Below are positions 5,275 to 64,000 of a stretch of 64,000 nucleotides of DNA, piece by piece. Every line of letters begins with the position of its first letter. Positions within the stretch are counted from its first letter, which is position 1. Below the pieces are notes generated by a model. It saw nothing but the letters and a program-made list of their open reading frames with translations, searched no databases and was not told where the DNA came from. Source of the stretch: Micromonospora sp. R77 (GTDB lineage: Bacteria; Actinomycetota; Actinomycetes; Mycobacteriales; Micromonosporaceae); NCBI RefSeq assembly GCF_022747945.1, contig NZ_JALDST010000001.1, positions 6,572,001-6,636,000 of the forward strand. Reading direction: 5' to 3'. Both the position numbers and the translations under genes were made by a program.

Positions 5275-6876
5275 TCAGCCGGGGGTGACCTCCCGGCGGC
5301 GGCGCAGCACCGCCGCGCCGGCCAGGGCCGCGACGGCCAACACCGTCAGCGCCACCTCCGGCCACACCCCGGCCCGGGTGGCGGGGGTACGCCCGTCCCC
5401 GAGCCGCATCTGCCGGACCACCACCTCGGCGGTGTTGAATCCGGTGGCACCGGATACCCGCCCGTCGGGGGCAACGAACCCGGACACCCCGACCGTGGAG
5501 GCCATCAACGCGGCGCGGCCGTGCTCCACGGCGCGCAGCCGCACCATGGCCAACTGCTGGCGGGCCTCGGCAACGTCGAAGGTCGCGTTGTTGGTCTGCA
5601 CCACCAGCAGCTGCGCCCCGCCGGTGACGGTGTCGCGGACGAGGCCGTCGTAGGCGACCTCGAAGCAGATGACGTCGCCGAGGGTGGCCGGCCCGGCGGC
5701 CAGCACGCCCGGGGTGGTGCCGGGCACGAAGTCGGAGCGCACCCGGTCCACCTCGGCGCTGACCTTGCGGGCGATGTCCCGCAGCGGCACGTACTCGGCG
5801 AACGGGACGGGATGCCGTTTGGTGTACAACTGCCCCAGGTCGGGGCCGCTGCCGGGCCGCCACAGCAGGCCGGCGTTGCGGACCTGCCCCTTGCCGGGGC
5901 CCAGCAGCACCGCGCCGACCAGGATGGGCGCGCCGATCGCGTCGGCGGCCTGGGAGATCCGGTAGCCGGCGCCCGGGTTGCGCAGCGGGTCGATGTCGCT
6001 GGAGTTCTCCGGCCACACCACCAGGTCGGGGCGGGCCTGCGCGCCGGCGGTGACCTGCGCCGCGAGTGCCAGGGTGGCGTCGACGTGGTTGTTGAGCACG
6101 GCCTGCCGCTGGGCGTTGAAGTCCAGCCCGAGACGGGGCACGTTGCCCTGCACGATCGCGACGGTGACGGTGTCGCCGCCGCCGCGGCTACCCGGCCGGC
6201 ACGGCCAGGCCGACGGCGAGGACGGCGACGAGCGCGGCGGCGGCCTGCTCGGCCGCCACGGCGAAGCCGGACGCCAGCGCCGCCAGCCGAGGGTGACCAG
6301 CAGTCCGCCGATCAGCGCCACCCCGCGAACGTGACCAGCGGCGCGCCGCCGAGCGCGGCGAGCCGCAGCAGCGGCGAGGAGTCCTGGCTGAACGCCAGCC
6401 GACCCCACGGGAACCCGCCGAACGGGGTGCGGTCCCGCAGCGCCTCCTGCCCGACCCACAGCACCCCGGTCACCGCCGGCCACGCCGCCCGGTACCGGTC
6501 GACCAGCGGCGACACCCAGGCGCCGGCCGCGCCCAGCAGCGCCAGGTAGCCGGCCTGCAGCAGCGACAGCAGCACCCACGGCAGGTAGCCGGTGTGCAGG
6601 TTGGTCCACTCCAGCAGCGGCGCGAACAGGGTCACCCCGGCCAGGAAGCCCGGCCAGCCGACGCCGCGGCGCACCGCCGGTGCACGGCGGCGGCGAGCTG
6701 CGCCACCCCGACCGGCGCGAGCGGCGCCACACCCCGTAAGGGGGGAACGCGGCCAGCAGCGCCAGCCCGGCCACCACGGCCAGCGGCACGGCCACCGTCA
6801 ACCTCAGGGGACGGGGCTTCCCGGCGTCTCGGGCCCCGTCCGTGGCCCGCGTCTCTTCCCGGTCGAGCGTCGTCAC
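5275..6876 (-). CDS. lnt: Apolipoprotein N-acyltransferase, frame broken as read
   Basis: Lnt transfers an acyl chain to the N-terminal Cys of lipoproteins in the cytoplasmic membrane. N-terminal residues (LTVAVPLAVVAGLALLAAFPPYGVW) and the whole nitrilase-type C-terminal domain are in one frame. That domain shows the Glu in PFAEYVPLRD and the catalytic Cys in GDVICFEVAYDG, plus VVWPENSSD. The middle membrane segment (RRGVGWPGFLAGVTLFAP to GGAPLVTFAGW, roughly 6312-6674) is in another frame, and the joins near 6725, 6675, 6315 and 6200 all need shifts. Total length is right for the family, so indels are more likely than true loss. The GTG at 6876 has GAGG 5 nt upstream; GTG at 6882 is also possible. 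It lies upstream of ppm, probably in one operon. Confidence 0.85.
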   Translation of the reverse strand: MTTLDREETRATDGARDAGKPRPLRLTVAVPLAVVAGLALLAAFPPYGVWRRSRRSGWRSSPPPCTGGAPRRRLAGLPGRGDPVRAAAGVDQPAHRLPAVGAAVAAAGRLPGAAGRGRRLGVAAGRPVPGGVAGGDRGAVGRAGGAAGPHPVRRVPVGSAGVQPGLLAAAAARRARRRAAGHVRGVALIGGLLVTLGWRRWRPASPWRPSRPPPRSSPSSPSAWPCRPGSRGGGDTVTVAIVQGNVPRLGLDFNAQRQAVLNNHVDATLALAAQVTAGAQARPDLVVWPENSSDIDPLRNPGAGYRISQAADAIGAPILVGAVLLGPGKGQVRNAGLLWRPGSGPDLGQLYTKRHPVPFAEYVPLRDIARKVSAEVDRVRSDFVPGTTPGVLAAGPATLGDVICFEVAYDGLVRDTVTGGAQLLVVQTNNATFDVAEARQQLAMVRLRAVEHGRAALMASTVGVSGFVAPDGRVSGATGFNTAEVVVRQMRLGDGRTPATRAGVWPEVALTVLAVAALAGAAVLRRRREVTPG

Positions 6877-6946
6877 CGGCACCTCACCACGATCACGCGC
6901 CGAAGGCTACCCGTCCCGGCCCGCCCGGCGTCGCTCCGGTGGCGGC

Positions 6947-7405
6947 CTAGTCGGGCAGGTGGATCACCGGCAGGTCCCCGTCGCCGTAGCGCGGTTCCCC
7001 GGTCAGGATCGGGGCGTCGTGCTCCAGGCAGGCCAGCACGGTGGTCGCCAGGTCCACCCGGCCGGTGAAGCCCCGCCAGTACGCCAACTCCTGCCACGAC
7101 GCCGCGGCCGTCGGGAGCACGGCGCACGCGTCCAGACCGAGCAGCCGGCCCAGCGCCGCCCGGTCCTTCGGGTCGTCCACGACGGCGAGGGTCTCCGCGG
7201 CGGTCACGGCGGTCACCCCGAACCGGACCCCGTCGGCGATCACCTCGTGCAGCGGCTCGCCCACGTGTACCGATCCGGCCAGGTACGCCAGCAGCGCGGA
7301 GCGGTCCAGCACCAGCCGTACCGGCGGCGCGTCGGGCGTCGTCCGCGGCCGGCGCCCGCGCGGCACCGGTGGCCTCGGTGTCGATCGCGGCCTGCACCCG
7401 CTCAC
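6947..7405 (-). CDS. PIN-domain-like protein, putative toxin (start uncertain)
   Basis: From about position 7318 downward the reading VRLVLDRSALLAYLAG, then VTAAETLAVV, then DLATTVLACLEHDAPILTGE has the spacing of a small PIN domain: an early Asp, a middle Glu and a late Asp. PIN toxins cleave RNA using such acidic residues. The region from 7405 to 7318 is Pro/Arg-rich and overlaps the antitoxin in another frame, so it is probably not coding here; a GTG at 7312 is too far inside. An indel near 7320 probably hides the true start. The pairing with an upstream antitoxin-like gene supports a type II toxin-antitoxin role. Lnt follows 70 bp downstream. Confidence 0.6.
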   Translation of the reverse strand: MSGCRPRSTPRPPVPRGRRPRTTPDAPPVRLVLDRSALLAYLAGSVHVGEPLHEVIADGVRFGVTAVTAAETLAVVDDPKDRAALGRLLGLDACAVLPTAAASWQELAYWRGFTGRVDLATTVLACLEHDAPILTGEPRYGDGDLPVIHLPD

Positions 7406-7649
7406 GGACCGCCTGGTAGCGCTCCGACGGCCAGGCGGCGTCCACGGCGGCGCGGGCCGCCCGCGCCCGCGTCACCCCCTCCTCGGTCACCGGGATGCCC
7501 TGGTGCGCCAGCTCGGCGCTCAGCGCCTCGCGGCGCATCAGCGCCCGCGCCGCCTCCACCAGGTAGGCACTGGCGTTGGGTTCGCGTTCCAGCCGCTCGG
7601 CGACGTCCGGCGGAACGGAGATCGACAGCTTCCGCACCGGTCTGGTCAT
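7315..7649 (-). CDS. Antitoxin-like protein (end uncertain)
   Basis: The ATG at 7649 begins MTRPVRKLSISVPPDVAERL, a ribbon-helix-helix-like N-terminus with a basic, beta-prone first strand followed by EREPNASAYLVEAARALMRRE. A helical region (LAHQGIPVTEEGVTRARAARAAVDAAW) comes next. Short proteins of this form are common antitoxins beside PIN genes in actinomycetes. The frame has no stop of its own and runs on through the PIN gene in the wrong frame, so the end given here is an estimate. This again points to an indel near 7320 or, less likely, a real fusion. Confidence 0.6.
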
Positions 7650-7806
7650 ACCGGGAAGCCTAGCCCGGTAGCACCGTCGGTGGTGGTCGCCGCGCCGATC
7701 AGCCGCGGCGGCGGGGTACCAGGACCGTGACGTCGTCGTGGTCCGCCGCCCCACCGGCCGCTGACCACCACCCGGACTGTCGTACCCGGCTGGCAGGGTG
7801 GCGGGC

Positions 7807-8493
7807 ATGGCGACGACCTACGTGCTGATCCCGGGGGCCGGCGGCGAAGCCGCGTTCTGGCAGCCCCTGACGACCGAACTGCGCCGCCGCGGCCACGACG
7901 TGGTGCCGGTGGACCTACCCGCCGCCGACGAGCGGGCCGCCCTGCCGGAATACGCCGCCGTCGTCCGCGCCGCCGTCGACGGCCACGACGACGTGGTGCT
8001 GGTCGCCCAGTCGCTCGGCGCGTTCACCGCGCCGCTGGTGGCCGACCACCCGGCGGTGCGGCTGCTGGTGCTGCTCAACCCGATGATCCCCGCCCCCGGG
8101 GAGACCCCCGGCGAGTGGGGGGACGCGACCGGCCACGGCCCGGCCCGCGCCGCGTACGCCGCCGCGCAGGGCCGCGACCCGGACGCCCCGGTGGACCTGG
8201 TGGTGGACTTCCTGCACGACGTGCCCGACGAGGTGGCCGCGTCGCTGCTGGCCGGTGACCGGGCGTCGGAGTCCGAATCGGTGTTCACCCGACCCAACCC
8301 GCTGCGCCGGTGGCCGGACGTGCCGACCCGGGTGGTCTCCGGCCGCGACGACCGGCTCTTCCCGCTGGAGTTCCAGCGCCGCCTGGCCCGCGAACGGTTG
8401 GGCATCGAGCCCGCCGTGCTGCCCGGCGGGCACCTGCTCGCCATGAGCCAGCCGGTGCTCCTGGCCGACCTGCTGGAGTCCTGGCACCCCTGA
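7807..8493 (+). CDS. Alpha/beta hydrolase
   Basis: A 228-residue protein starting at the ATG at 7807 (MATTYVLIPGAGGEAAFW); a GTG at 7798 is in frame but less favoured. It shows the oxyanion strand LIPGAGG, the nucleophile elbow VAQSLGAF with Ser, an acid in SGRDDRLFP and the His in PGGHLLAMSQP. This is the small esterase type often annotated as alpha/beta fold hydrolase, close in style to EstA/salicylate-esterase relatives. Substrate unknown. It is a single gene followed by a strong terminator hairpin. Confidence 0.9.
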   Translation: MATTYVLIPGAGGEAAFWQPLTTELRRRGHDVVPVDLPAADERAALPEYAAVVRAAVDGHDDVVLVAQSLGAFTAPLVADHPAVRLLVLLNPMIPAPGETPGEWGDATGHGPARAAYAAAQGRDPDAPVDLVVDFLHDVPDEVAASLLAGDRASESESVFTRPNPLRRWPDVPTRVVSGRDDRLFPLEFQRRLARERLGIEPAVLPGGHLLAMSQPVLLADLLESWHP

Positions 8494-8515
8494 CCCGGGC
8501 GTGGACGGCAACGAA

Positions 8516-8545
8516 ATCGGGGCGCGGCTCACGCCGCGCCCCGAT
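8516..8545 (+). terminator. Terminator of the hydrolase gene
   Basis: A 12-bp perfect stem (ATCGGGGCGCGG at 8516-8527 and its complement at 8534-8545) with a 6-nt loop lies 22 bp after the stop. Confidence 0.75.
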
Positions 8546-8915
8546 GCTCCCAGGCCCTTCCCGGCCGGTGGGGCGAGAGTGAACGGCGCCGACCTTCGGA
8601 CCGACCCGACGTGGACTGGCTGCCCCCGCCTGGCCGTTGTCTACTGGCCGTGCCTTTCACCCTGCCCGTACACCGGTAACCGCGGCCGGTTCGCGCCGCC
8701 CCGCCGACCCCCGCCCGCTGGACCTGGCCGCCGCGACTATGAAGGTCGCTCGGCCAGCGGACGAAGGGACGAAGCGAACAACAGCCGCTTCCCGTGGTAG
8801 GACTCAAAGACGGTACGTGCTGCCCCCCGCCCGTTGTCAACCCACCCCGGCCTGTCGTGTGTTGCGCCACGGCGTGTCGCGTCGGCGCGTCTCGATGGGC
8901 TGACCGTCGGTGCGC
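8546..8915. other. Intergenic stretch without recognised gene
   Basis: Lies between the convergent hydrolase and reactivase genes. Short open frames on both strands have no family features or ribosome sites. No RNA gene or clear terminator for the kam operon was seen. Confidence 0.5.
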
Positions 8916-10244
8916 TCACCGGTCCAGGTGCCGGCGCAGCAACGCCCGCGCCGCCCCCGGATGGTCGTCGGCGAGCAGCCCACCGGCGGCCAGCACGTAG
9001 TCCACGTCGACGACGGGCCGCGCCGCCCGCGGCAACGGCCAACCGCCGCATAGTCGGTCAGCACCGCACCAGCACCCCGGCCGCGTCCGCCTGCGCGTGC
9101 CGCAACACCCCGCGGAACCCACCAGCAGCCGCACGGTCCAGGTCGACCAGCCCGTTCCCGGCGATCGCCTTGCCCCGCGCGTGCCGCCGCAACGCCACCG
9201 TCGCGGCCAGCGCCGCGATCCGCGCGTCGACCGCCCGGTCGGTGTCGTCGCCGGGCAGGAAACCCGGATCCAGCGGCCCGCACCGCGCCGCCGCGGCCAG
9301 GTCGTCCTGTTCGCCGGCGACCAGCAGACGTTCCTCGGCGGCGGCGCCGTTGCCACGCCGGGCGCGCTCCACCGCATGCCCAGGTCGCCCTCGACGGTCC
9401 GGGCCCGCCACAGGGTGCCGGCGACCTCCCGGCCCGGGCCGGTGGCCCGCTCGTCGGGGGTGAGCACCGAGTACACGTCGGTGGTCGCGCCCCCCACGTC
9501 CACCACGGCCAGGTCCCCACCGACGGCGTCGGCGAGGACCTCCACCCCGGTCAGCACCGCGTCGGGGGTCGCGGCCCGCACCAGCCGCGCGAACCGGCCA
9601 CCCCGCGACAGCCGCTTCCCGCCGATGACGTGCCGCAGGAACACCTCCCGGATCGCCGCCCGCGCCGACGCCGGCGCCAGCACCCCGATCCGGGGCAACA
9701 CGTTGTCGGCCACCGTCACCGGCACCCCCGCCCCGGCCAACAGGTCACCCAGGTCGTCGCGGACGTCGACGTTGCCCGCCAGGACCACCGGCACCCGCCA
9801 GCGGGCCTTCGCCAGCCGCGTCGCGTTGTGCGTCAACGTCTCCGCGTCACCGCCGTCGGTGCCGCCGACCAGCAGCACCACATCGGGGCGGGCACCGCGC
9901 AGCGCCGTCAGGTCCGCCGCACCGAGCCGCCCGGCCGCCACGTGCACCACGTTCGCCCCGGCCGACAAGCCCACCCGCCGGCCGGCCTGCGCGGTGACGA
10001 GGGGCTCGTAGCCGATCACGGCCAGCCGCAGCCCCCCACCCGCCGACGAACACACGTACCACGGCACGTCGCGGACCCCGAGGCCCGCGGTCGCCGCGCC
10101 CACGGCCGCGTCCAAGCCGTGCAGCACGTCCGAGCCGACCGTGGTCGGCGCGGACGCCGCCGCGACCAGCGCGCCCGCGTCGAGGTCCACCACCGCCGCC
10201 TTCGTGTACGTGGAACCGACGTCGGCGCAGACCGCGACGTTCAC
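8916..10244 (-). CDS. GlmL/MutL-type ATPase, probable aminomutase reactivase (KamC-like), frame broken
   Basis: The start is the GTG at 10244, which overlaps the kal stop as GTGA. The N-terminal actin-like ATPase fold is clear: CADVGSTYTKAAVVDL (phosphate 1), VLLVGGTDGGDAETL and the second phosphate loop VVDVGGATTDVYSV. This is the MutL/GlmL family that reactivates adenosylcobalamin mutases; in lysine fermenters the relative KamC services KamDE. From about 9375 the reading moves to another frame (EERLLVAGEQDDLAAAARCG to RHAQADAAGVLV). It returns near 9060 (VVDVDYVLAAGGLLADDHPGA), so two compensating shifts are needed. It is the last gene of the kam operon. Confidence 0.8.
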   Translation of the reverse strand: MNVAVCADVGSTYTKAAVVDLDAGALVAAASAPTTVGSDVLHGLDAAVGAATAGLGVRDVPWYVCSSAGGGLRLAVIGYEPLVTAQAGRRVGLSAGANVVHVAAGRLGAADLTALRGARPDVVLLVGGTDGGDAETLTHNATRLAKARWRVPVVLAGNVDVRDDLGDLLAGAGVPVTVADNVLPRIGVLAPASARAAIREVFLRHVIGGKRLSRGGRFARLVRAATPDAVLTGVEVLADAVGGDLAVVDVGGATTDVYSVLTPDERATGPGREVAGTLWRARTVEGDLGMRWSAPGVATAPPPRNVCWSPANRTTWPRRRGAGRWIRVSCPATTPTGRSTRGSRRWPRRWRCGGTRGARRSPGTGWSTWTVRLLVGSAGCCGTRRRTRPGCWCGADRLCGGWPLPRAARPVVDVDYVLAAGGLLADDHPGAARALLRRHLDR

Positions 10245-53609: not shown

Positions 53610-56600
53610 TCAGCTGGTGAGCCAGCGGTGGATGCAGTGCAGCAGGTCGTCGGCGTCGACCGGCTTGGTGACGTAGTCGCTGGCACCGGAGGAGATGCTC
53701 TTCTCCCGGTCCCCGTGCATCGCCTTGGCGGTCACCGCGATGATCGGCAGGTCCGCGTAGCGCGGCATGGCCCGGATCGCGGCGGTCGCGGCGTAGCCGT
53801 CCATCTCCGGCATCATCACGTCCATCAGGACCAGGTCGATGTCGTCGTGCCGCATCAGCGTCTCGACGCCCTTGCGGCCGTTCTCGGCGTACACCACGTC
53901 GAGGCCGTGCAGCTCCAGGATGTTGGTCAGCGCGAAGACGTTGCGGGCGTCGTCGTCGACCACCAGCACCTTCCGCCCGGCCAACGCCGAGGCCAGCGGA
54001 TCGGCGACCGTCGTCCGGTCGTGGCTCGGCAGCGGGAAGGGCACGACCCGTTCCGGGGACTCCGCCGTCAGGTGCAGCGCGATCCGCTCGCGCAGGTCGT
54101 CCAGGCTGCGCAGGATCTCCAGCGGCCGGTCGTTCGCCAGGGTCTGGAGCAGGGCCTCCTGCCCGGGCGCCAGCGGCTGGCCGTGGTAGGCGAGCACCGG
54201 GACACCGCGCAGGCCGGCGTCGTCGTGCACCGCCTTCAGCTGCGCGGTGCCGCCGTCCTCGGCGCTGTCCAGGTGCAGCACCAGCAGGTGATGGCGGTGC
54301 GCCGCCAGGGCCTCGACCGCCGATGACACGTCGACCGCGGTGAAGACGTCCACGCTCGCGCCGGTCTCCGCCGCCACCGCCCGGGTCAGCAGGCTCAGCA
54401 GCCCCTTGTCGTGCGGTTCGAGCACCAGCAGCCGTCGCTGCTGCAGCTCCACCCACCGGTGCGCGTCCGGCTCCACCTCGTGGCCGGCGACGGGGAGCGC
54501 CGAGTTGTCGACCACGTGCGCGTCGGTGACGGTGGCCGGCAGGTAGAGGGTGAAGGTGCTGCCCTGACCGAGTACGCTGCGGGCGGTGATCTGCCCGCCG
54601 AGCAGCTGGGCGATCTCCCGGCTGATGGACAACCCGAGCCCGGTGCCGCCGTACCGGCGGCTGGTGGTGCCGTCTGCCTGTTGGAAGGCGTCGAAGATGG
54701 CGGTCAGGTGCTGCTCGGCGATGCCGATGCCGGTGTCGATCACCCGGAACGCGATGATGTCGCCGTCGGTCGGGAAGCCGCCGGGCAACTCGTCGGGCCG
54801 GGCCCGCTCGATACGCAGCTGCACCCGGCCCTTCTCGGTGAACTTGACCGCGTTGGAGACCAGGTTGCGCAGCACCTGCCGCAGCCGCTGCTCGTCGGTG
54901 TGCAGCCGGGTGGGGACGTCCGGACCGGTGGTGATGTCCAGTTCCAGCCCGCGCGGCGTGGTCAGCGGACGGAAGGTGGCGTCGACGTAGTCGCGCAGGA
55001 CGGAGAGGTCGAACGTCTCCGGGTTGATGTCCATCTTGCCCGCCTCGACCTTGGACAGGTCGAGGATGTCGTTGATCAGCTGGAGCAGGTCGGTGCCGGC
55101 CGAGTGGATGACCGTGGCGTACTCGACCTGCTTGCCGGTCAGGTTCCGGCTCGGGTTCTGGGCCAGCAACTGGGCGAGGATGAGCAACGAGTTCAACGGC
55201 GTACGCAGCTCGTGGCTCATGTTCGCGAGGAACTCGGACTTGTACTTCGAGGCGAGGGCGAGCTGCTGGGCCCGGGCCTCCAGCTCCTGCCGGGCCTGCT
55301 CGATCTCCGAGTTCTTGGTCTCGATGTCGTGGTTCTGCCGGACCAGCAGCGCCGCCTTGTCCTCCAGCTCGGCGTTGGAGCGCTGCAGCTCCTCCGAGCG
55401 GGCCTGCAGCTCCTCCGAGCGGGCCCGCAGCTCGGCGGCGAGGCGCTGCGACTCGGTGAGCAGCACGTCGGTGCGGGCGTTGGCGACGATGGTGTTGACG
55501 TTGACACCGATGGTCTCGGTGAGCTGATCGAGGAAGTCGCGCTGGATCTCGGTGAACCGGCTCATGCTGGCCAGCTCGATCACGCCCAACACCTGGTCCT
55601 CGAAGAGGATGGGCAGCACCACCAGGTGCAGCGGGGCGGCGGCACCGAGGCTGGAGGAGACGGTGACGTAGTCGGCCGGCACGGCGTCGACGACGATGGC
55701 CCGCTTGCTCAGCGCGGCCTGGCCCACCAGCGACTCGCCGAGGGCGTAGCGGCGGCGGGTCGCGTCGTGGCCGTAGCCGCCCACCACCCGCAGGGCCGTC
55801 CCCGCCGGGCCGTCGTCGACCAGCAGGAACGTGCCGAGCTGCGCGGCGACCAGCGGGGCGAGCTCGTTCATCACCAGCCCGGCGACGACGTCCAGGTCGC
55901 GGTGGCCCTGCATCAGGCCGGAGATGCGGGCCAGGTTGGTCTTGAGCCAGTCCTGTTCCTCGTTGGTGCGGGTGGTCTCGCGCAGCGACTCCACCATGAA
56001 GTTGATGTTGTCCTTGAGCTCCGCGACCTCGCCGGAGGCGTCCACGGTGATGGAGCGGGTCAGGTCGCCGGTGGCCACCGCGCTGGTCACCTCGGCGATC
56101 GCGCGCACCTGCCGGGTGAGGTTCCCGGCCAGCTCGTTGACGTTCTCGGTGAGGCGCTTCCACGTACCGGAGACGCCCTCGACCTCGGCCTGGCCGCCCA
56201 GCCGGCCCTCGCTGCCCACCTCCCGGGCGACCCGGGTGACCTCCGCAGCGAAGCTGGAGAGCTGGTCGACCATGGTGTTGATGGTGGTCTTCAGCTCCAG
56301 GATCTCGCCGCGCGCGTCGACGTCGATCTTCCTGGTCAGGTCGCCCTGCGCCACCGCCGTGGTGACCTGGGCGATGTTGCGGACCTGGCCGGTCAGGTTG
56401 TTGGCCATCGAGTTGACGTTGTCGGTGAGGTCCTTCCAGGTGCCGGCCACGTTCGGCACCCGCGCCTGACCGCCCAGCCGGCCCTCGGTGCCCACCTCGC
56501 GGGCCACCCGGGTCACCTCGTCGGCGAACGCGCCGAGGGTGCCGACCATGGTGTTGATGGTCTGGGCGAGCACGGCCACCTCGCCCTTGGCCTCCACGGT

Positions 56601-58133
56601 GATCTGCCGACTCAGGTCGCCCTGCGCGACGGCGGTGGCGACCAGCGCGATCGAGCGCACCTGGTTGGTGAGGTTGTTCGCCATCTCGTTGACGTTGTCG
56701 GTGAGGTCCTTCCAGGTGCCACCGACGTTGGAGACCCGCGCCTGACCGCCCAGCCGGCCCTCCGTGCCCACCTCGCGGGCCACCCGGGTCACCTCGTCGG
56801 CGAACGCGGAGAGCTGGTCGACCATCGTGTTGATGGTCTCCTTGAGCGCCAGGATCTCGCCCCGCGCGTCGACCCGGATCTTCTGGGTCAGGTCGCCCTT
56901 CGCCACCGCCGTAGTGACCTCGGCGATGCTGCGGACCTGGGCGGTGAGGTTGTCCGCCATGACGTTGACGGACTCGGTGAGGTCCTTCCAGGTGCCGGAG
57001 ACGCCCTTGACGTCGGCCTGGCCGCCGAGCCGACCCTCGGTGCCGACCTCACGGGCCACCCGGGTCACCTCGTCGGCGAACGACGACAGCTGGTCCACCA
57101 TCGTGTTGATGGTGTTCTTCAGCTCCAGGATCTCCCCGTGCGCGGTGACGGTGATCTTCTGTGACAGGTCACCCCGGGCGACGGCCGTCGCGACCTGCGC
57201 GATGCTGCGCACCTGGTCGGTGAGGTTGACGGCCATCGAGTTGACCGAGTCGGTGAGGTCGCGCCAGGTGCCGGCGACGCCGCTGACCTGGGCCTGACCG
57301 CCCAGCCGGCCGTCGGTGCCGACCTCCCGGGCCACCCGGGTCACCTCGTCGGCGAACGACGAGAGCTGGTCCACCATCGTGTTGATGGTGCTCTTGAGCT
57401 CCAGGATCTCGCCGCGGGCGTCGACGGTGATCTTCTGCGACAGATCGCCCCGGGCCACCGCGGTGGTCACCTGGGCGATGTTGCGGACCTGGCTGGTCAG
57501 GTTGCCGGCCATGAAGTTGACCGAGTCGGTGAGGTCGCGCCAGGTGCCGGCCACGCCGGGCACCTCGGCCTGGCCGCCGAGGCGGCCCTCGCTGCCCACC
57601 TCCCGGGCCACCCGGGTCACCTCGTCGGCGAACGACGACAACTGGTCCACCATCGTGTTGATCGTGATCTTCAACTCGAGGATCTCGCCCCGCACGTCGA
57701 CGGTGATCTTCTGCGACAGGTCACCCCGGGCCACCGCGGTGGCCACCTCGGCGATGTCGCGGACCTGGTCGGTCAGGTTGCCGGCCATCGCGTTGACCGA
57801 GTCGGTGAGGTCCTTCCAGGTGCCGGAGACGCCCGGCACCTCGGCCTGACCACCGAGCTGCCCCTCGGTGCCCACCTCCCGGGCGACCCGGGTCACCTCG
57901 GAGGTGAACAGCGACAGCTGGTCGACCATGCCGTTGAAGACGGTGGCGATCTCGCCGAGCAGGCCGTCGGCGTCCTCCGGGAGGCGGGTGCCGAAGTCGC
58001 CGTCGCGTACCGCGGTCAGACCCGCCAGCAACTGCCGCAGCCCGGGGTCGGCCACCGGCCCGCCGGCACCGGTGCCCTGGTCACGTCGCCGTGGAACCGT
58101 CTGTTCGACCACCGCTACCGCCCTCTGCCGCAC
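53610..58133 (-). CDS. Hybrid histidine kinase with seven tandem HAMP units, GAF and receiver domains
   Basis: A 1507-residue protein without membrane helices. After a short N-terminus, residues 81-724 are seven 92-residue units, each with [32 protein letters not shown] and [20 protein letters not shown] helices, i.e. a chain of HAMP domains. Then come a GAF domain (about 760-920), a coiled coil ([20 protein letters not shown]), HisKA with the phosphoacceptor in [13 protein letters not shown] (about 973) and HATPase ([33 protein letters not shown]). A degenerate receiver-like region follows, then a true receiver (LVVDDDARN, phosphoacceptor Asp in [13 protein letters not shown]). It probably senses a soluble or partner-borne signal and relays phosphate; no cognate regulator is adjacent. 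The start is GTG 58133; GTG 8 codons later is also possible. Confidence 0.93.
55962..57893 (-). repeat. Seven tandem 276-bp units coding the HAMP array
   Basis: The units encode 92-residue blocks of the hybrid kinase. Spacing is exact, with conserved points recurring every 276 bp (for example at 56488, 56764 and, two units apart, 57316 and 57868). High nucleotide similarity between units makes unit number prone to recombination and to assembly collapse. Confidence 0.9.
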
Positions 58134-58367: not shown

Positions 58368-59180
58368 TCAGCAGTCGGCGAGCTGGCCGCGCAGCTTGGT
58401 CAGCGCGCGGGCGAGCAACCGGGAGACGTGCATCTGGGAGACCCCGACCTGGGCGGCGATCTCGCTCTGCGTCAGGTTGCCGTAGAAGCGGAGGGTGAGG
58501 ATCTTCTGCTCGCGCTCGTCCAGGGTGGCCAGCGCCGGGCCGAGGGCGACCCGCAGCTCGGCCAGCTCGTACTCGTTGTCGTCGCTGCCGAGGGTGTCGC
58601 CGAGCTCGGTGGCGCTCTCGCCGTCGCCGATCGGGGTGTTCAGCGAGACCGCGTTGTAGGCGCGGGCACCTTCCAGGCCCTCCAGCACCTCTTCCTCGGT
58701 CACGTCGAGGTGGGTGGCGATGTCGGCGACGGTGGGCGCCCGGTTCAACGTCTGGGTGAGGGTGCTGTTGGCCTCGGAGATCTTCAGGCGCAGCTCCTGC
58801 AGGCGGCGCGGCACCCGGATGTTCCAGGTCCGGTCGCGGAAGTGCCGCTTGATCTCACCGAGGATCGTCGGGATGGCGAAGCCGGCGAAGTCCACGCCAC
58901 GGGAGGCGTCGAACCGGTCCACCGCCTTGATCAGGCCGAGCGCCGCGGTCTGGGCCAGGTCGCCGTTGGGCTCACCCCGCCCGCTGTAGCGGAAGGCGAG
59001 GTGGTTGGCCAGCGGCAGCCACGCCTCGATCACCTCGTTGCGCAGGGCCGGCCGGTCCGGGTGCCCGGCGGGCAGCGCGGACAGCGCCGTGATCAGCTCG
59101 GTGGCCCGGGACTCGTGGGCCGAGACCCGGGTGCTGCTGACGTCGGTGGTGCCGGTCTGCGCAACGGTCGTGGTGATCAT
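58368..59180 (-). CDS. SigB/SigF-type RNA polymerase sigma factor
   Basis: A 270-residue sigma factor. ATG 59180 has GGAAGGGCAGC upstream. Region 2 (LANHLAFRYSGRGEPNGDLA, GLIKAVDRFDASRGVDFAGF, IKRHFRDRTW), region 3 (APTVADIATHLDVTEEEVLE) and region 4 (LTLRFYGNLTQSEIAAQVGV, SQMHVSRLLARALTKLR) are complete. This subfamily controls general stress or sporulation in actinomycetes and is normally held by an anti-sigma factor; none is adjacent. The neighbouring GAF/HAMP kinase resembles those associated with such sigma factors. Confidence 0.95.
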   Translation of the reverse strand: MITTTVAQTGTTDVSSTRVSAHESRATELITALSALPAGHPDRPALRNEVIEAWLPLANHLAFRYSGRGEPNGDLAQTAALGLIKAVDRFDASRGVDFAGFAIPTILGEIKRHFRDRTWNIRVPRRLQELRLKISEANSTLTQTLNRAPTVADIATHLDVTEEEVLEGLEGARAYNAVSLNTPIGDGESATELGDTLGSDDNEYELAELRVALGPALATLDEREQKILTLRFYGNLTQSEIAAQVGVSQMHVSRLLARALTKLRGQLADC

Positions 59181-59313
59181 GCTGCCCTTCCTCTTCTGCG
59201 GCGACAGCGGCTTCACAGCAGCGCCGTCCGTGGGAGCAACCCTAGACCGAATGTCACTGCCATATCAACCGAACGGCTGACGAAATTTTTTTCGTGAATC
59301 GACCTGCCGTCGT

Positions 59314-59341
59314 TTGCCGGGTGCGCCGCCCCCGCTACGCT
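59314..59341 (+). promoter_or_regulatory. Promoter of the crotonase-like gene (leaderless)
   Basis: TTGCCG (59314-59319) and TACGCT (59336-59341) are separated by 16 bp. The expected transcription start coincides with the GTG start codon at 59348, and there is no ribosome site, so the transcript is probably leaderless. Confidence 0.6.
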
Positions 59342-59347
59342 GCACCG

Positions 59348-60136
59348 GTGACCGAACCGCCCGCCCTGGCCCGCCTGGAGGTCGAGCCCTCGGGCCTGGC
59401 CGTGCTCACCATCGACGCCGGGCCGCTCAACCTCTACACCCTCGAACTGCACGAGCGGATCGACGCCGCCCTCGACCGGCTGCCCGACGACATCCGGGCC
59501 CTGCTGATCCGTTTCGAGGGCCGGGTGGTGAGCGCCGGCGTGGACGTCCACCTGTTCGCGGCCCAGCAGACGCCGGAGCAGGCGAAGCTGCTCTTCGACC
59601 GGATGCTGGCACTGCCCGAACGAATCGCCGCGTACCGGTTCCCGACCGTCTTCGCCGCCCACGCGCTCTGCCTCACCTGGGCGTTCGAGGTGGCCGTGGC
59701 CTGTGACCTGATCCTGGCCGCCCAGCGGGCGAGCTTCGGCCTGGTGGAGAAGGTGGTCGGGCTGACGCCCACCATGGGCGGCACCCAACGGCTCGCCGCA
59801 CGCGCCGGGGTGGGCCGCGCCAAGGAGTTCGTGATGACCGGGGAACGCTATCCGGCGGCAGTGCTGGAACGGTGGAACGTGGTGAACCGGATCCTGCCCG
59901 ACGACGGGTTCGACGCCGCCGCGCGGGCCTTCGCCGCGCAGCTCGCCGCCGGACCGACCCGGGCGCACGCCGCCACCAAGACGGTGCTCGACCACTTCGC
60001 CGACGGTGGCGTGGCCGAGGCCGACCGGCACGTGACGACGATCGCCGCGCAGCTGTACCGCACCGAGGACCTGCGCAACGCGGTGCGGTCGTTCCTCGTC
60101 GACGGTCCGGGCCGGGCCACCTTCACCGGGCGCTGA
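59348..60136 (+). CDS. Enoyl-CoA hydratase/isomerase family protein with unusual oxyanion segment
   Basis: A 262-residue crotonase-fold protein; GTG 59348 begins TEPPALARLEVEPSGLAVLT. The first oxyanion loop is VVSAGVDVHLF. The second segment is ALCLTWAFEVAVACD where active hydratases have a GGG run; the Glu that follows and the second Glu in SFGLVEKVVG are kept. The usual MGGTQRLAARAGVGRAKEFV follows. It may be a hydratase/isomerase with altered chemistry or a different CoA enzyme. Monocistronic; it converges on the SLOG gene. Confidence 0.88.
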   Translation: MTEPPALARLEVEPSGLAVLTIDAGPLNLYTLELHERIDAALDRLPDDIRALLIRFEGRVVSAGVDVHLFAAQQTPEQAKLLFDRMLALPERIAAYRFPTVFAAHALCLTWAFEVAVACDLILAAQRASFGLVEKVVGLTPTMGGTQRLAARAGVGRAKEFVMTGERYPAAVLERWNVVNRILPDDGFDAAARAFAAQLAAGPTRAHAATKTVLDHFADGGVAEADRHVTTIAAQLYRTEDLRNAVRSFLVDGPGRATFTGR

Positions 60137-60141
60137 GGTCC

Positions 60142-60654
60142 CTAGTCCCCCAGTACCAGCCGGCGGGCACCGGCGGGCCAGAGGATCGTGGTCGGGATGC
60201 CGCGCTGCCGCGCCCGGTCGACGGTCCGGTCCGTCGACGCCGCGTGGCAGCCCGGTTCGCCGTCCCAGACCGCCACGAGTCGCTGCACCCGTCGGACCAG
60301 CTCCTGGTTGGCAGCCACGAAGGCGGCGGTGCCGGAGCGGGCGTACCCGGTGTGGACGACGGTCGCCGCCCGGTTCAGCAGCTCGTCGAAGGCCGCTCGG
60401 TTCTCCGGGGCGATCACCGCGGTCCGGTAGTCGGGCGCCGGCAGGACCACCTCGTACGTGCCCCCCAGCTCGAGAACCGTCCGCGCGAAGACCTGGTCCG
60501 CACCCGCCGCCAGACAGGTCACGCCGTGCACCGGGCGGTCGCTGATCCGGCGCAACTCGGCGCGGAGCGCGTCGGCGACGAGCAGCTCGGTGTCGTAAGT
60601 CAGGTTGATGTGCCCGGTCACGCCGACGCGTACCGGTGCGGGGTCAGCCGGCAT
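60142..60654 (-). CDS. SLOG-like nucleotide-binding protein
   Basis: A 170-residue single-domain Rossmann-like protein from ATG 60654. The strand-loop VRVGVTGHINLTYDTELLVA is followed by GVTCLAAGADQVFARTVLEL and YEVVLPAPDYRTAV. Later come DELLNRAATVVHTGYARSGT and the terminal LVAVWDGEPG. This fits the SLOG superfamily (relatives of LOG and DprA), members of which are predicted to bind or process nucleotide-derived ligands in signalling and conflict systems. Its start lies 11 bp inside the RyR gene, indicating coupled translation. Enzyme or sensor cannot be decided. Confidence 0.75.
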   Translation of the reverse strand: MPADPAPVRVGVTGHINLTYDTELLVADALRAELRRISDRPVHGVTCLAAGADQVFARTVLELGGTYEVVLPAPDYRTAVIAPENRAAFDELLNRAATVVHTGYARSGTAAFVAANQELVRRVQRLVAVWDGEPGCHAASTDRTVDRARQRGIPTTILWPAGARRLVLGD

Positions 60655-62461
60655 CCCCCGGTCCTCTCCGCTGCCCGGGCACCGCGGGCGCCAGCCGGAT
60701 GAGCTCGAACCCGCTGTCGGAGAGCACGTCGGGCAGCGCCCGGATCTCCTCGCGGTTGCGCTCCTGCAGGTCCGGGGGCAACTCGTCCCAGGGGCGCAGG
60801 GCGGGATGCCGCCGCTGGCCGTCGTCACGGCGCTCGCCGTACGCCCAGCCCTCGCCGCGTCGTTCCCGGCACCACCGTTCGTGCTCCAGGCGGGCGAGTT
60901 CCTCGATCCGGTCGTCGATGGCCTGCGCGGCGGCGGACGCGTCGCCGGTGCCGCCGTGCCGGGGCGCCACGACGCAGCCGAGATTCAGCAGCTTGGCGGC
61001 GATGTCCTGGACATGGGCCCGGTTGGCCCGCCGCAGCGACTCGGGCAGCCGCGACCAGTCCACCATCGCCGGGGCGTCGCCGGGGCGCACCCCGGCCCGC
61101 TGCTGGGCCTCCAGGTATCGCTCGTGGATGAGCCGGGCCAGCCGCTCGGTGAGGTCGTCGGCGATCAGCCGGGCGTCGCAGGCATGGGTCAGCACCGGAT
61201 AGAGGCGGACCTTTCCGTGCACCTCGTCGAGCAGGTCGTGGCGGTGGTCGCCGTGGAAGGCGGCGGCGAGGGCGGCCTGGCGGTAGACCGGCACGAAGAC
61301 GGCGGTCTCGGTGCGCTGCCAGAGGGCCGGCGAGTCCAGCACGAACCGCACGCCCCGGCGCTCGTCCGGCACGCAGATGTAGATGCGGTCGTAGCGGTCG
61401 GCGCCGAGCCGGCCCGGTCCGACGACGCCGTCGAGGTCCAGGTCGTGCGCGGTGAGCTGGCAGACGGTGGTCATGAACGGGTAGCGCGTCGCCGCGGCGG
61501 CGAGCTCGGCGGCGGCGTCGGGGGCCACCAGGTCCACCCGCAGCGGCGGTACGGCGTGCCCCTCGGCCAGCTCGGCGCGGCGGGCCCGCCAGTGCCGGGC
61601 GGTCTCCAGCAGGAGAGCCCGGCGGAAGGCGCCGGTGCCGGCGATGAGCACCCGGGTGGGTCGGCCGGCCGCGCGGGGCAGCGGGTGGTGCCGGTGCAGC
61701 GCGCGGGCGGCCACGTCGTCGACGTGGAAGTAGTCCAACCGCAGCCGACTGGCCCCGGCCGCGCCGAGCCGTCGCGCCTGCAGTGACAGGCACACCTCGG
61801 ATTCGTGGACCAGCACGTAGACGCGCGGTGGCGGCCGCCCGTCCCGGATCAGCCGGCTGGCGGTGTTGGCGATGGCGTAGTTGCTGTCGTCGTCGTCGCT
61901 GCAGGCGTAGATGGTGTGGGCCCGGGGCAGTCCGGCGCCGCGCAGCACCTGCGGGCTGGTCGGATCGCCGATGACGCCGAGATACCGGCGGGCGCGGAAC
62001 TCCAGCGGACCGAAGGCCTTCGCGCGCACCACGACCACGCGTTCCCCGTCGGCGAAGAGCCGGTCCGCGAGCATGTGGGCGAACTGGGAGTCGCCGCAGA
62101 CCAGCACGTGGTCCCGGGCCCGCCGGGCGCGCAGGCGGCGGCTCTCGGCGGCCAGCAGCAGCCGGCCGGCCTCGGCCACGGCCAGCAGGGTGAACAGCGG
62201 GGCGGCGAACCGGGCGACCTGCAGCTGCCACGGGTAGGGGCCCGGGTTCTGGAAGGGCTCGGCACCGAAGACGAACAGTTGCAGGTCGTAGTAGAGCACG
62301 TCGTAGGTGTCGTGGACGAGATCCGGCCGGATCCGCAGCAGGCGCGCGAACCCGACGTAGCCGAGAACGAGAGCGGCCAGCCCGATGACCCCGAAGAGGA
62401 TCCTCAGCCACCAGCCGGCCGCGCGGGACGAGCCGGCGACCGGGTCTGTCATGGGGCTCAT
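60644..62461 (-). CDS. Membrane protein with TrkA-N-type Rossmann domains and a C-terminal RyR domain
   Basis: A 605-residue protein. Two N-terminal membrane helices (WWLRILFGVIGLAALVLGYV and FAAPLFTLLAVAEAGRLLLA) lack a K+-channel TVGYG filter. The first TrkA-N domain is HVLVCGDSQFAHMLADRLFA to IYACSDDDDSNYAIANTA. A second Rossmann-like unit starts RVLIAGTGAFRRALLLETA. The C-terminus (about 520-590) is a RyR domain: LARLEHERWCRERRGEGWAY, HPALRPWDELPPDLQERNRE. RyR domains in bacteria are associated with predicted nucleotide-sensing systems. It may gate or report on membrane state in response to a nucleotide. ATG 62461 is used; ATG 62452 is possible. Coupled to the SLOG gene. Confidence 0.82.
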   Translation of the reverse strand: MSPMTDPVAGSSRAAGWWLRILFGVIGLAALVLGYVGFARLLRIRPDLVHDTYDVLYYDLQLFVFGAEPFQNPGPYPWQLQVARFAAPLFTLLAVAEAGRLLLAAESRRLRARRARDHVLVCGDSQFAHMLADRLFADGERVVVVRAKAFGPLEFRARRYLGVIGDPTSPQVLRGAGLPRAHTIYACSDDDDSNYAIANTASRLIRDGRPPPRVYVLVHESEVCLSLQARRLGAAGASRLRLDYFHVDDVAARALHRHHPLPRAAGRPTRVLIAGTGAFRRALLLETARHWRARRAELAEGHAVPPLRVDLVAPDAAAELAAAATRYPFMTTVCQLTAHDLDLDGVVGPGRLGADRYDRIYICVPDERRGVRFVLDSPALWQRTETAVFVPVYRQAALAAAFHGDHRHDLLDEVHGKVRLYPVLTHACDARLIADDLTERLARLIHERYLEAQQRAGVRPGDAPAMVDWSRLPESLRRANRAHVQDIAAKLLNLGCVVAPRHGGTGDASAAAQAIDDRIEELARLEHERWCRERRGEGWAYGERRDDGQRRHPALRPWDELPPDLQERNREEIRALPDVLSDSGFELIRLAPAVPGQRRGPGDAG

Positions 62462-62531
62462 GGTATTTGACGAGGTCGATCGGGACCGCGCTCGACGCGC
62501 ACCCCGCTCGACACCGGCGACCCGGGCGGCG

Positions 62532-64000
62532 TCACGGGAAGTCGTCGGGCCCGGTGTCGGGGAGCGTGGCCAGCAGCTGCCCGGCCAACCGCCGTACGGT
62601 GTCGTCGTCCTCCTGGTGGGCGAGCCGCACCAGGACCTGCCGGGTCCGGATGTCCCGGTAGTGGTGGCGGGTCAAGGCGAGCAGCGCCGTCCGGCGGATC
62701 TCCCAGTCGGTGTCGTCGGCCAGCCGCAGCAGCAGCTCCGGCACCCCCGCCCGGCCGGCCAGGGTGGCGCCCAACTGTTCCACCGCCCGGCGCCGGACCT
62801 CGAGGTCCGGGTCGTCGCGGACCAGCCCCACCAGCAGCACCTGGACCTCCGGGTCGGCGCCGAAGTGCTCGCCGAGCGCGGCGGCGATGCGGGCGCGGAT
62901 CGCCGGGTCCTGGTCCGCCAGGCGGCGCATGAGCCGCAGGGTCACCGCCATGGACGCCGAGCCCTGCTCGGTCAGGCAGCACACCGCCGCGTCGAAGACG
63001 GCCGGATCGGTGTCCGACTCGACGCACTCCAGCAGCACGTCGGTCGCGACGTCGGGTTTGCCGTACCGGCAGAGGGTCCGCACGGCGGCCAGCCGGATGC
63101 CGACGTAGCTGTCCCGGCGGGCCCGCCGGCACAGCGTCTCCAGCAGGCCCGCGGCCTCGCCGTGGCCGGCGAGCGCCTGGGCGGCGGCGCGCAGCACGTT
63201 CGGGTCGGGATCCCGGCTGACCTGTTCGGCCAGGCACTCCCGCACCGCGGCGTCGGGCGGTTCGGCGAGGCGGGTCAGACTGCGGGTGACCCGCAGCCGG
63301 ACGATCGGGTCCCGCTCCTGGAAGGCCCGGCTGATGAGCAGGTCACGGGTGGCGTGGCCGAACGGTGACCGGCCGGTGAGCAGGTCGATCGCGGCGAGCC
63401 GGACGCTCGCGGTGGGGTCTCGCCGGGCGCTGTCCAGCAGCAGTTCCCCGGTGCGGTGGTCGGGGTAGGCCTCGGCCAGCCCGCGCACCGCGGCGAGGCG
63501 GACCGTGGCGTCCTCGTCGACGCGCGCCGCGTGCGCCACCACCGTCCAGCCGGTGTCGTCGACGCGGTCCTGGTCGATCAGCGCGGTGACCGCGGCGGCC
63601 CGCACCGAGGCGTCCTCGTCCTGCTCGATCCGATCGACCAACCGGGCCCGGCAGCGCCCGTCCGGGTCCGGTACGAGCGCCAGCCGCTGCACCGCGACGG
63701 CGCGCAGCCGCGCGGAGCTGTCCGAACCGGCCAGCTTCAGCAGCAGTTCGGTGCTCTCCGGGCCGGGCGGGCCGGGCAGCAGTCTGGTCACCACGCAGCG
63801 CCGCACCTCGTCCGGTGCGTCCCCGGCCACCCGCTGCAACGCCCGGGCGCGGGCGGTCTCGGCGTGTGCGGTCAGGGCCAGCAGGCCCTCCAGCGCACCC
63901 TGCACCACGCCGGGGTCGCTGTCGGTGGCCAGCAGCCGGTGCAGGGTCCCCGGCGCGTCCGGCAGGTCGGCGCACCGCGCGGTGAGCACCCCGACGGCGG
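62532..64000 (-). CDS. HEAT-repeat protein, 5' end beyond the window
   Basis: At least 489 residues of a partial protein; the frame stays open to the window edge. It consists of about 14 helical HEAT/PBS-lyase-like repeats of roughly 31-34 residues (patterns such as DEDASVRAAAVTALIDQDRV, DPTASVRLAAIDLLTGRSPF, DPDLEVRRRAVEQLGATLAG). HEAT arrays bind proteins or nucleic acids and are frequent in NACHT-type and other conflict proteins; an effector or NTPase domain, if any, would lie outside. Same strand as the RyR gene with 70 bp between them, probably one operon. Confidence 0.88.
   Translation of the reverse strand, partial: AVGVLTARCADLPDAPGTLHRLLATDSDPGVVQGALEGLLALTAHAETARARALQRVAGDAPDEVRRCVVTRLLPGPPGPESTELLLKLAGSDSSARLRAVAVQRLALVPDPDGRCRARLVDRIEQDEDASVRAAAVTALIDQDRVDDTGWTVVAHAARVDEDATVRLAAVRGLAEAYPDHRTGELLLDSARRDPTASVRLAAIDLLTGRSPFGHATRDLLISRAFQERDPIVRLRVTRSLTRLAEPPDAAVRECLAEQVSRDPDPNVLRAAAQALAGHGEAAGLLETLCRRARRDSYVGIRLAAVRTLCRYGKPDVATDVLLECVESDTDPAVFDAAVCCLTEQGSASMAVTLRLMRRLADQDPAIRARIAAALGEHFGADPEVQVLLVGLVRDDPDLEVRRRAVEQLGATLAGRAGVPELLLRLADDTDWEIRRTALLALTRHHYRDIRTRQVLVRLAHQEDDDTVRRLAGQLLATLPDTGPDDFP

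Follow-up and report, generated by a model that had tools for sequence, protein, structure and literature searches.

The window analysed here is a stretch of 64,000 nucleotides from the 7.1-Mb genome of the soil actinobacterium Micromonospora sp. R77 (contig NZ_JALDST010000001.1, positions 6,572,001 to 6,636,000), the end of which (60,142 to 64,000) carries a minus-strand gene block encoding a DUF4062-NACHT-HEAT protein, a membrane protein with RyR domains and a SLOG protein. The block may be a STAND-gated signalling cassette based on nicotinamide adenine dinucleotide (NAD+), in which an NADase product is read at the membrane by the RyR and SLOG proteins, and we give this reading an even chance of being right. 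Its domains, motifs, model folds, RyR–SLOG pairing and repeated placing beside DUF4062, TIR and STAND genes are observed; the step from gene neighbourhood to mechanism we infer. A preliminary description of the window had proposed nucleotide signalling at the membrane with SLOG as a possible maker of the signal; the signalling idea finds support in the parts and their neighbours, and the likely maker is a TIR-like DUF4062 domain at an N-terminus beyond the window, not SLOG.

Domain architecture of the gene block

The three same-strand open reading frames (ORFs) of that description, the last two overlapping by 11 bp, were recovered at the coordinates given for them, and the stop codon of the DUF4062-NACHT-HEAT gene lies 70 bases ahead of the RyR start codon. 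The features are as follows (aa, amino acids; TM, transmembrane helix).

60142..60654, minus strand: SLOG protein, YpsA-like by fold, 170 aa; start codon inside the RyR gene (11-base overlap)
60644..62461, minus strand: 2TM, tandem RCK/TrkA-N, tandem RyR (R12) membrane protein, 605 aa; model pLDDT 85.7, pTM 0.82
62120..62428, minus strand: membrane part of the RyR protein, with TM1 (residues 12-44), a pore-helix-like helix (52-64) and TM2 (78-114); no TVGYG-type filter
61154..62116, minus strand: two Rossmann (RCK-type) units of the RyR protein, residues 116-436
60692..61153, minus strand: tandem RyR/R12 repeats of the RyR protein, residues 437-590; H527, W530 and H552 kept, N569 at the site of D117 in phage RyDEP
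62532..64000, minus strand: C-terminal HEAT part of the DUF4062-NACHT-HEAT gene, which runs past the window edge
L002:533-4783 (62532-66782 on the window scale), minus strand: whole DUF4062-NACHT-HEAT gene, 1416 aa

The HEAT gene had been taken for a scaffold. Its HEAT repeats are confirmed, and the view of it as nothing but a scaffold proved wrong when the contig was extended, the upstream DNA showing DUF4062 and NACHT N-terminal to HEAT. By Pfam the 1416-aa protein consists of DUF4062 (PF13271, E = 6.6e-20), NACHT (44.6 bits against a cut-off of 26.7) and HEAT_2, with both Walker A (GDPGSGKS) and Walker B (LFLFDGLD) intact. An S-x-T-x-x-E motif is kept in the DUF4062 family. All but one of 34 rows have its Glu (E92 of P0001); the exception is a caspase-HATPase-DUF4062-NACHT-HEAT fusion, aligned over a piece that does not include its DUF4062. 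This Glu is equated with E97 of KpSwz by the motif, without alignment to KpSwz. In the available excerpts of a 2026 preprint, DUF4062 domains are TIR-like NADases that convert NAD+ to ADP-ribose (ADPR) and nicotinamide, act in bacterial phage defence, are active in human TEP1 and stand next to NACHT in human TEP1, NWD1, NWD2 and NPHP3 (PMC13174449). By its profile match and conserved catalytic Glu, the DUF4062 of the present gene is a predicted TIR-like NADase. The fusion with caspase and HATPase is a 1935-aa protein (L134:6104-11911) from genome G311, which belongs to the same genus and has no RyR match. In two RyR-positive genomes, G212 and G302, the DUF4062-NACHT gene was matched in two pieces and looks broken.

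The RyR protein had been described as a two-helix membrane protein with tandem Rossmann units that passes from TrkA-N to RyR with no filter, and each of these traits holds. The RyR/R12 domain (PF02026) matches above the curated profile cut-off and has the R12 fold in the model, TrkA_N is matched by profile and appears as an RCK fold, and a TVGYG-type selectivity filter is present in 0 of 88 RyR-protein rows. The protein as a whole is recast by the model, which matches a chain of 2TM and tandem RCK like those of GsuK, TrkA and DMI1, with an R12 part like that of human RyR3; similarity to Kch and TrkA was also found in NCBIfam, below cut-off. Its architecture in the model is that of an RCK-gated channel chain, with 2TM and tandem RCK in one chain and a ring predicted. 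Two unusual relatives were seen: a 941-aa TrkA_N...RyR protein from another family (L105:9406-12231, genome G057), with about 600 intervening residues that match no Pfam family, and a 431-aa ORF (P0085) with HEAT domains that also aligns to 23% of the RyR query with 91% of residues identical, which is either a gene fusion or a frame error over the HEAT–RyR junction.

The ligand site of phage RyDEP comprises H75, W78, H100 and D117, with H75 and D117 as the catalytic His-Asp dyad; its R12 domain binds and cleaves 2'/3' cyclic ADPR (2'/3'cADPR), and of eight further phage homologues six bind this molecule and none cleaves it, as stated in the excerpted text of PMC13232231. These residues correspond here to H527, W530, H552 and N569, by their spacing (3, 25 and 42) and by PDB alignment. 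Of the 88 rows, 75 keep H527, 87 keep W530 and 68 keep H552; the D117 column holds D in 11 of them and N in all 33 Micromonospora-like rows. The RyDEP-type cADPR glycosidase dyad is incomplete here, H527 being present and the Asp replaced by N569. Since His, Trp and His are kept but Asp has become N569, a ligand binder without glycosidase activity is the plainer expectation, and the residues favour a receptor over a glycosidase as the probable role of the RyR domain.

By its YpsA-type fold the third protein belongs to the SLOG superfamily; no SLOG match was found among Pfam profiles, so the SLOG domain of the preliminary description stands by fold and not by profile. LOG nucleosidases carry the motif PGGxGTxxE. 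It occurs in 0 of 75 SLOG rows, which places the protein outside the LOG nucleosidase clade and makes it an unlikely, disfavoured maker of the signal. The YpsA-like SLOG clade includes cADPR sensors, according to published work on relatives, and SLOG domains are predicted in excerpts of PMC9503650 as both sensors and processors of ADPR derivatives. At one locus the SLOG gene was matched in two overlapping pieces, resembling a frame shift (L036:11875-12368).

Pairing, neighbours and co-occurrence

In a first set of 33 loci (the window plus L015-L046), the two genes of the RyR–SLOG pair are neighbours in 30, the exceptions being the distant L044, L045 and L046. The Anaerolineales contig L044 (4.7 kb) has no SLOG match; in the planctomycete L045 a SLOG-like ORF is separated from RyR by a flagellar FHIPEP gene, and no TIR or DUF4062 match was found among the three neighbours scanned. 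Divergent to the RyR protein in L045, and beside it, is a 1120-aa AAA protein (6273-9635) that tblastn aligns, at its C-terminus, with the RyR part. A second set of 40 further neighbourhoods, 39 of them with an RyR gene (L105 included), was non-random, with mostly one or a few regions per genus and several repeats of first-set species. There SLOG directly follows RyR in 24 regions and adjoins it by tblastn in L101; in L102 a SLOG piece lies on the opposite strand at the contig end, in L090 SLOG is in the region and separated from RyR, and no SLOG stands beside the divergent RyR loci L091-L097, L100, L103, L105, L106 and L116. The pairing is lost in divergent relatives. Among 106 own-genus genomes, SLOG is found in 28 of 29 with RyR against 1 of 77 without.

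Upstream of the DUF4062-NACHT-HEAT gene lie SCO2521 (opposite strand), SCO2522, SCO2523 (variant P-loop), SCO2524 and SCO2525 (methyltransferase), named by NCBIfam matches that are each above their own cut-off. The resulting order, SCO2524-2523-2522-[2521]-DUF4062/NACHT/HEAT-RyR-SLOG, recurs in 9 of the 30 adjoining first-set loci, headed by an SCO2525-type gene in eight of the nine, and in L108 and L111. In genus g51 (L099, L117-L122) the order is RyR-SLOG-[2521]-(237-324-aa ORF)-DUF4062/NACHT/HEAT-[2522-2523-2524], with SLOG not called in L117 and the last gene cut off in L099; the sole intervening ORF scanned, L118:10473-11438, is an FAD-dependent oxidoreductase (DAO). Of 20 loci retrieved for the DUF4062-NACHT gene or for the RyR gene beside it, 19 have SCO2521-2524-type genes together with the DUF4062-NACHT gene.

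Other loci have other neighbours. In L114 a different DUF4062 protein (1471 aa; DUF4062 E = 1.2e-16, with a winged helix-turn-helix domain) stands directly ahead of RyR-SLOG, and in L100 a DUF4062-NACHT-like gene directly precedes an RyR protein of 34% identity, with two TIR-WD40 genes beyond. TIR-WD40 genes also flank RyR in the distant clade of L092 and L094, their TIR_2 E values lying between 9e-7 and 6e-11. The FxSxx system of ribosomally synthesized and post-translationally modified peptides (RiPPs), consisting of FxsT, FxsB and an HExxH hydroxylase, neighbours RyR-SLOG in 13 of the 30 adjoining first-set loci, one of them in Dactylosporangium, and in several other genera. At L023:945-9621 and similar loci, FxsB radical SAM, FxSxx-COOH precursor, FxsT, a 330-aa protein of no family and a 702-aa AAA ATPase were seen beside RyR-SLOG; cluster C19 of these neighbours, once taken for a TIR protein, is an aKG-HExxH hydroxylase.

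The neighbours were compared with control regions by home-made hidden Markov models for DUF4062, TIR-WD40 and FxsT. The 40 control regions came from 40 RyR-positive genomes, each at a distance of roughly 500 kb from RyR on its own contig; these genomes were partly different from those of the RyR regions. A neighbour of one of the three kinds was found in 27 of 43 RyR regions against 0 of 40 control regions, and in 21 of 37 (p = 3e-9) when six regions picked for their linkage were left out, a contrast favoured by model seeds taken from RyR loci and by the non-independence of RyR loci by descent. DUF4062 and TIR neighbours alone gave 7 of 37 against 0 of 40 (p = 0.004). On an RyR tree of 74 rows (FastTree, with several long branches), DUF4062 linkage requires five changes, in four separate clades, the g51 rows L117-L122 having been fetched for being linked.

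In 61 relatives, the whole DUF4062-NACHT-HEAT protein occurs in seven genomes, all of the own genus and all RyR-positive, and SCO2523 exceeds its cut-off in the same seven and in three of other families. In 300 Micromonosporaceae genomes, searched with a 460-aa N-terminal query, DUF4062-NACHT is present, with both domains covered (in two pieces in two genomes), in 55, of which 50 have RyR, against 87 of 300 overall. Of these 50 genomes, 16 have the two genes on one contig and no more than 15 kb apart; in the other 34 the distance is larger or the genes are on separate contigs of a draft assembly. By genus, DUF4062-NACHT is found in 21 of 29 RyR-positive against 1 of 77 RyR-negative genomes of g1; among the g51 genomes listed, the figures are 8 of 23 with RyR and 4 of 44 without it. 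A tree of 80 g1 genomes built on the rpoB region (29 with RyR and 51 without, the odd G311 and G331 added deliberately) implies 13 or more gains or losses of RyR by parsimony. Independent pairs gave 10.9 same and 0 opposite of 12 for RyR–SLOG (p about 0.001), 7.1 same and 0 opposite of 9 for RyR given DUF4062 (p = 0.016), and 7.6 same and 0.5 opposite of 12 for DUF4062 given RyR (median p 0.016, range 0.008-0.07). The physical linkage of DUF4062 and RyR is strong evidence; their co-presence beyond linkage is suggestive only. The conserved co-occurrence that the preliminary description asked to see checked is upheld by the pairing, the 300 genomes and the tree, though not as something free of linkage.

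Elsewhere in the window, at 53610-58133, is a hybrid histidine kinase of 1507 aa in which HAMP is matched about seven times, alongside GAF, HisKA, HATPase and receiver domains. At 58368-59216 is a factor of the sigma-70 family that has regions 2, 3 and 4, and at 59294-60136 a gene for an enoyl-CoA hydratase that converges on the SLOG gene. A promoter and terminator scan gave nothing useful.

Proposed mechanism and rival explanations

In the proposed cassette, the NACHT-HEAT part of the large protein would sense a cue and oligomerise, and the N-terminal TIR-like DUF4062 would then cleave NAD+ into ADPR or a cyclic isomer. This ligand, or a shifted NAD+/ADPR ratio, would be bound by the tandem RyR (R12) and RCK ring and by the SLOG partner, and the membrane protein would change conformation, altering ion flux or membrane integrity and leading to growth arrest or death. 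A narrower and more doubtful form of this proposal is a bacterial ADPR-gated channel system, in which the product of the NLR-like DUF4062 NADase (ADPR or a cyclic isomer) would open or close a 2TM-RCK-RyR channel with a SLOG subunit. A role in phage defence is plausible from the kinship of the parts and their patchy presence; PADLOC returned nothing for the SLOG and RyR proteins and two weak matches (E = 0.0014 and 0.0035) in the HEAT part.

Several observations weigh against the cassette. Conduction by the RyR protein is doubtful because it lacks a K+ filter, and the pocket varies in other genera, with Q or S at 527 and S, T, N and others at 552, so the ligand may differ there. No neighbour of the three kinds was found at 16 of 43 RyR loci, about 13 of the 39 second-set RyR loci have no SLOG next door, and 37 of 87 RyR-positive genomes are without a DUF4062-NACHT gene. 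SLOG matches occur in 144 of the 300 genomes and RyR in 87, so many SLOG relatives live in genomes without RyR. FxsT is present in 241 of 300 genomes, for which reason only its nearness to RyR counts, as weaker evidence; its TIR part is below cut-off in Pfam (E = 1.5e-4 and 0.084), so the FxSxx loci are STAND-type neighbours and only possibly NADases. In the L114 protein TPR and HEAT score below cut-off and NACHT was not found, and the L100 gene narrowly misses the cut-offs for DUF4062 (23.1 bits against 24.7) and NACHT (26.6 against 26.7). With the nine physically linked genomes removed, just three or six independent pairs are left, too few to inform, and co-occurrence apart from linkage is therefore not proven. 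Finally, the reported outcome of the DUF4062 system Swarozyc is NAD+ depletion (PMC13174449, excerpts), so no receptor is needed there.

Three other explanations have to be weighed. RyR and SLOG could form an off-switch that sequesters or degrades an ADPR-type product and shields the cell from its own NADase, much as phage RyR acts on Thoeris. The phage proteins do work as glycosidase or sponge (PMC13232231, excerpts), and the predicted processing role of SLOG domains (PMC9503650, excerpts) would suit such a function; however, the site of the catalytic D117 holds Asn (N569) here and Asp in just 11 of 88 rows, which counts against a glycosidase and not against a sponge, a sponge would have no use for a 2TM-RCK ring, and the LOG motif is missing from every SLOG row. 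We consider an off-switch unlikely. An equally unlikely alternative is that the block works in the development or peptide signalling tied to SCO2521-2525 and the FxSxx RiPPs, with RyR-SLOG as a shared membrane output unrelated to phage. The near-constant company of SCO2521-2524-type genes (19 of 20 loci), the coincidence of SCO2523, above cut-off, with the DUF4062-NACHT-HEAT protein in seven own-genus genomes and FxsT near RyR-SLOG in 13 of 30 loci all suit it, as does a similarity of both kinds of neighbour to the KGGVGR variant ATPase, above cut-off only for FxsT of L077. It is opposed by loci where TIR-WD40 or other DUF4062 genes stand beside RyR and no SCO252x gene was called in the region (L092, L094, L100 and L114), and by a patchy presence (11 of 37 own-genus genomes). 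That the RyR protein is an ordinary ion-transport regulator, a TrkA/GsuK-like RCK protein reading NAD(H) or ATP with its neighbours there by chance, fits the RCK fold, the TrkA_N match and the sub-cut-off similarity to Kch and TrkA, but is quite improbable given a filter missing in 88 of 88 rows, RyR in just 87 of 300 family genomes, control regions devoid of such neighbours (0 of 40) and the 13 or more gains or losses of RyR across the 80-genome tree.

Significance and comparison with known systems

Each part of the block is of a known kind, and the combination is best filed as a variant of a TIR-type NADase with a dedicated nucleotide receptor. Few receptor types are known to us in bacteria for NAD+-derived TIR signals. 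RyR domains that are host-encoded, borne by a channel-shaped protein and found repeatedly beside TIR-like genes would be a new candidate receptor class, and they make testable whether cellular, and not just phage, RyR R12 domains read ADPR-type ligands, a point left open in the excerpts of PMC13232231. The block also gives a first testable context for bacterial DUF4062-NACHT proteins, which have the layout of TEP1, NWD1 and NPHP3, and for the SCO2521-2524 genes, which are met with in the open literature in one mention, of SCO2521. In the titles and abstract beginnings of the open-access literature, subscription papers being outside this scope, nothing describes a trio of DUF4062-NACHT-HEAT, RyR and SLOG; the word RyR does not occur in the available main text of PMC7159879 or PMC8195603, and 'ryanodine receptor' is found just in the references of the latter. 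If the narrower reading, an ADPR-gated channel system, is right, it would be a prokaryotic counterpart of the animal circuit from NADase to TRPM2 and ryanodine receptors, with a host-encoded RyR receptor for TIR-type signals.

Swarozyc and human TEP1 share with the present protein a DUF4062 TIR-like domain with a conserved Glu, and TEP1, NWD1, NWD2 and NPHP3 share the pairing of DUF4062 with NACHT. In Swarozyc, however, an HTH/winged auxiliary domain senses the phage portal, whereas here NACHT and HEAT are found by Pfam and the RyR/SLOG pair lies next door. In Thoeris the TIR protein ThsB signals to the SLOG effector ThsA; in contrast, the TIR-like part here is a DUF4062 in a STAND protein, SLOG stands alone and the membrane part bears RCK and RyR domains. 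The PADLOC models of Thoeris matched neither the SLOG nor the RyR protein nor the HEAT part, the window proteins being those searched. Phage RyDEP proteins resemble the RyR protein in an R12 domain with the His, Trp and His ligand residues, but they are phage-encoded and act against defence, whereas the present domain is host-encoded beside a DUF4062 gene, tandem, fused to 2TM-RCK and changed from Asp to Asn. GsuK, MthK and CASTOR-DMI1 RCK channels likewise have 2TM and tandem RCK in one chain by model comparison, and differ from the present protein, which has no selectivity filter and an extra tandem RyR domain. Animal TRPM2, with its SLOG fold, and ryanodine receptors, with R12, carry these domains on channels under adenine-nucleotide control; here the domains are on separate polypeptides with another pore type, and the likeness is one of possible working rather than of membership.

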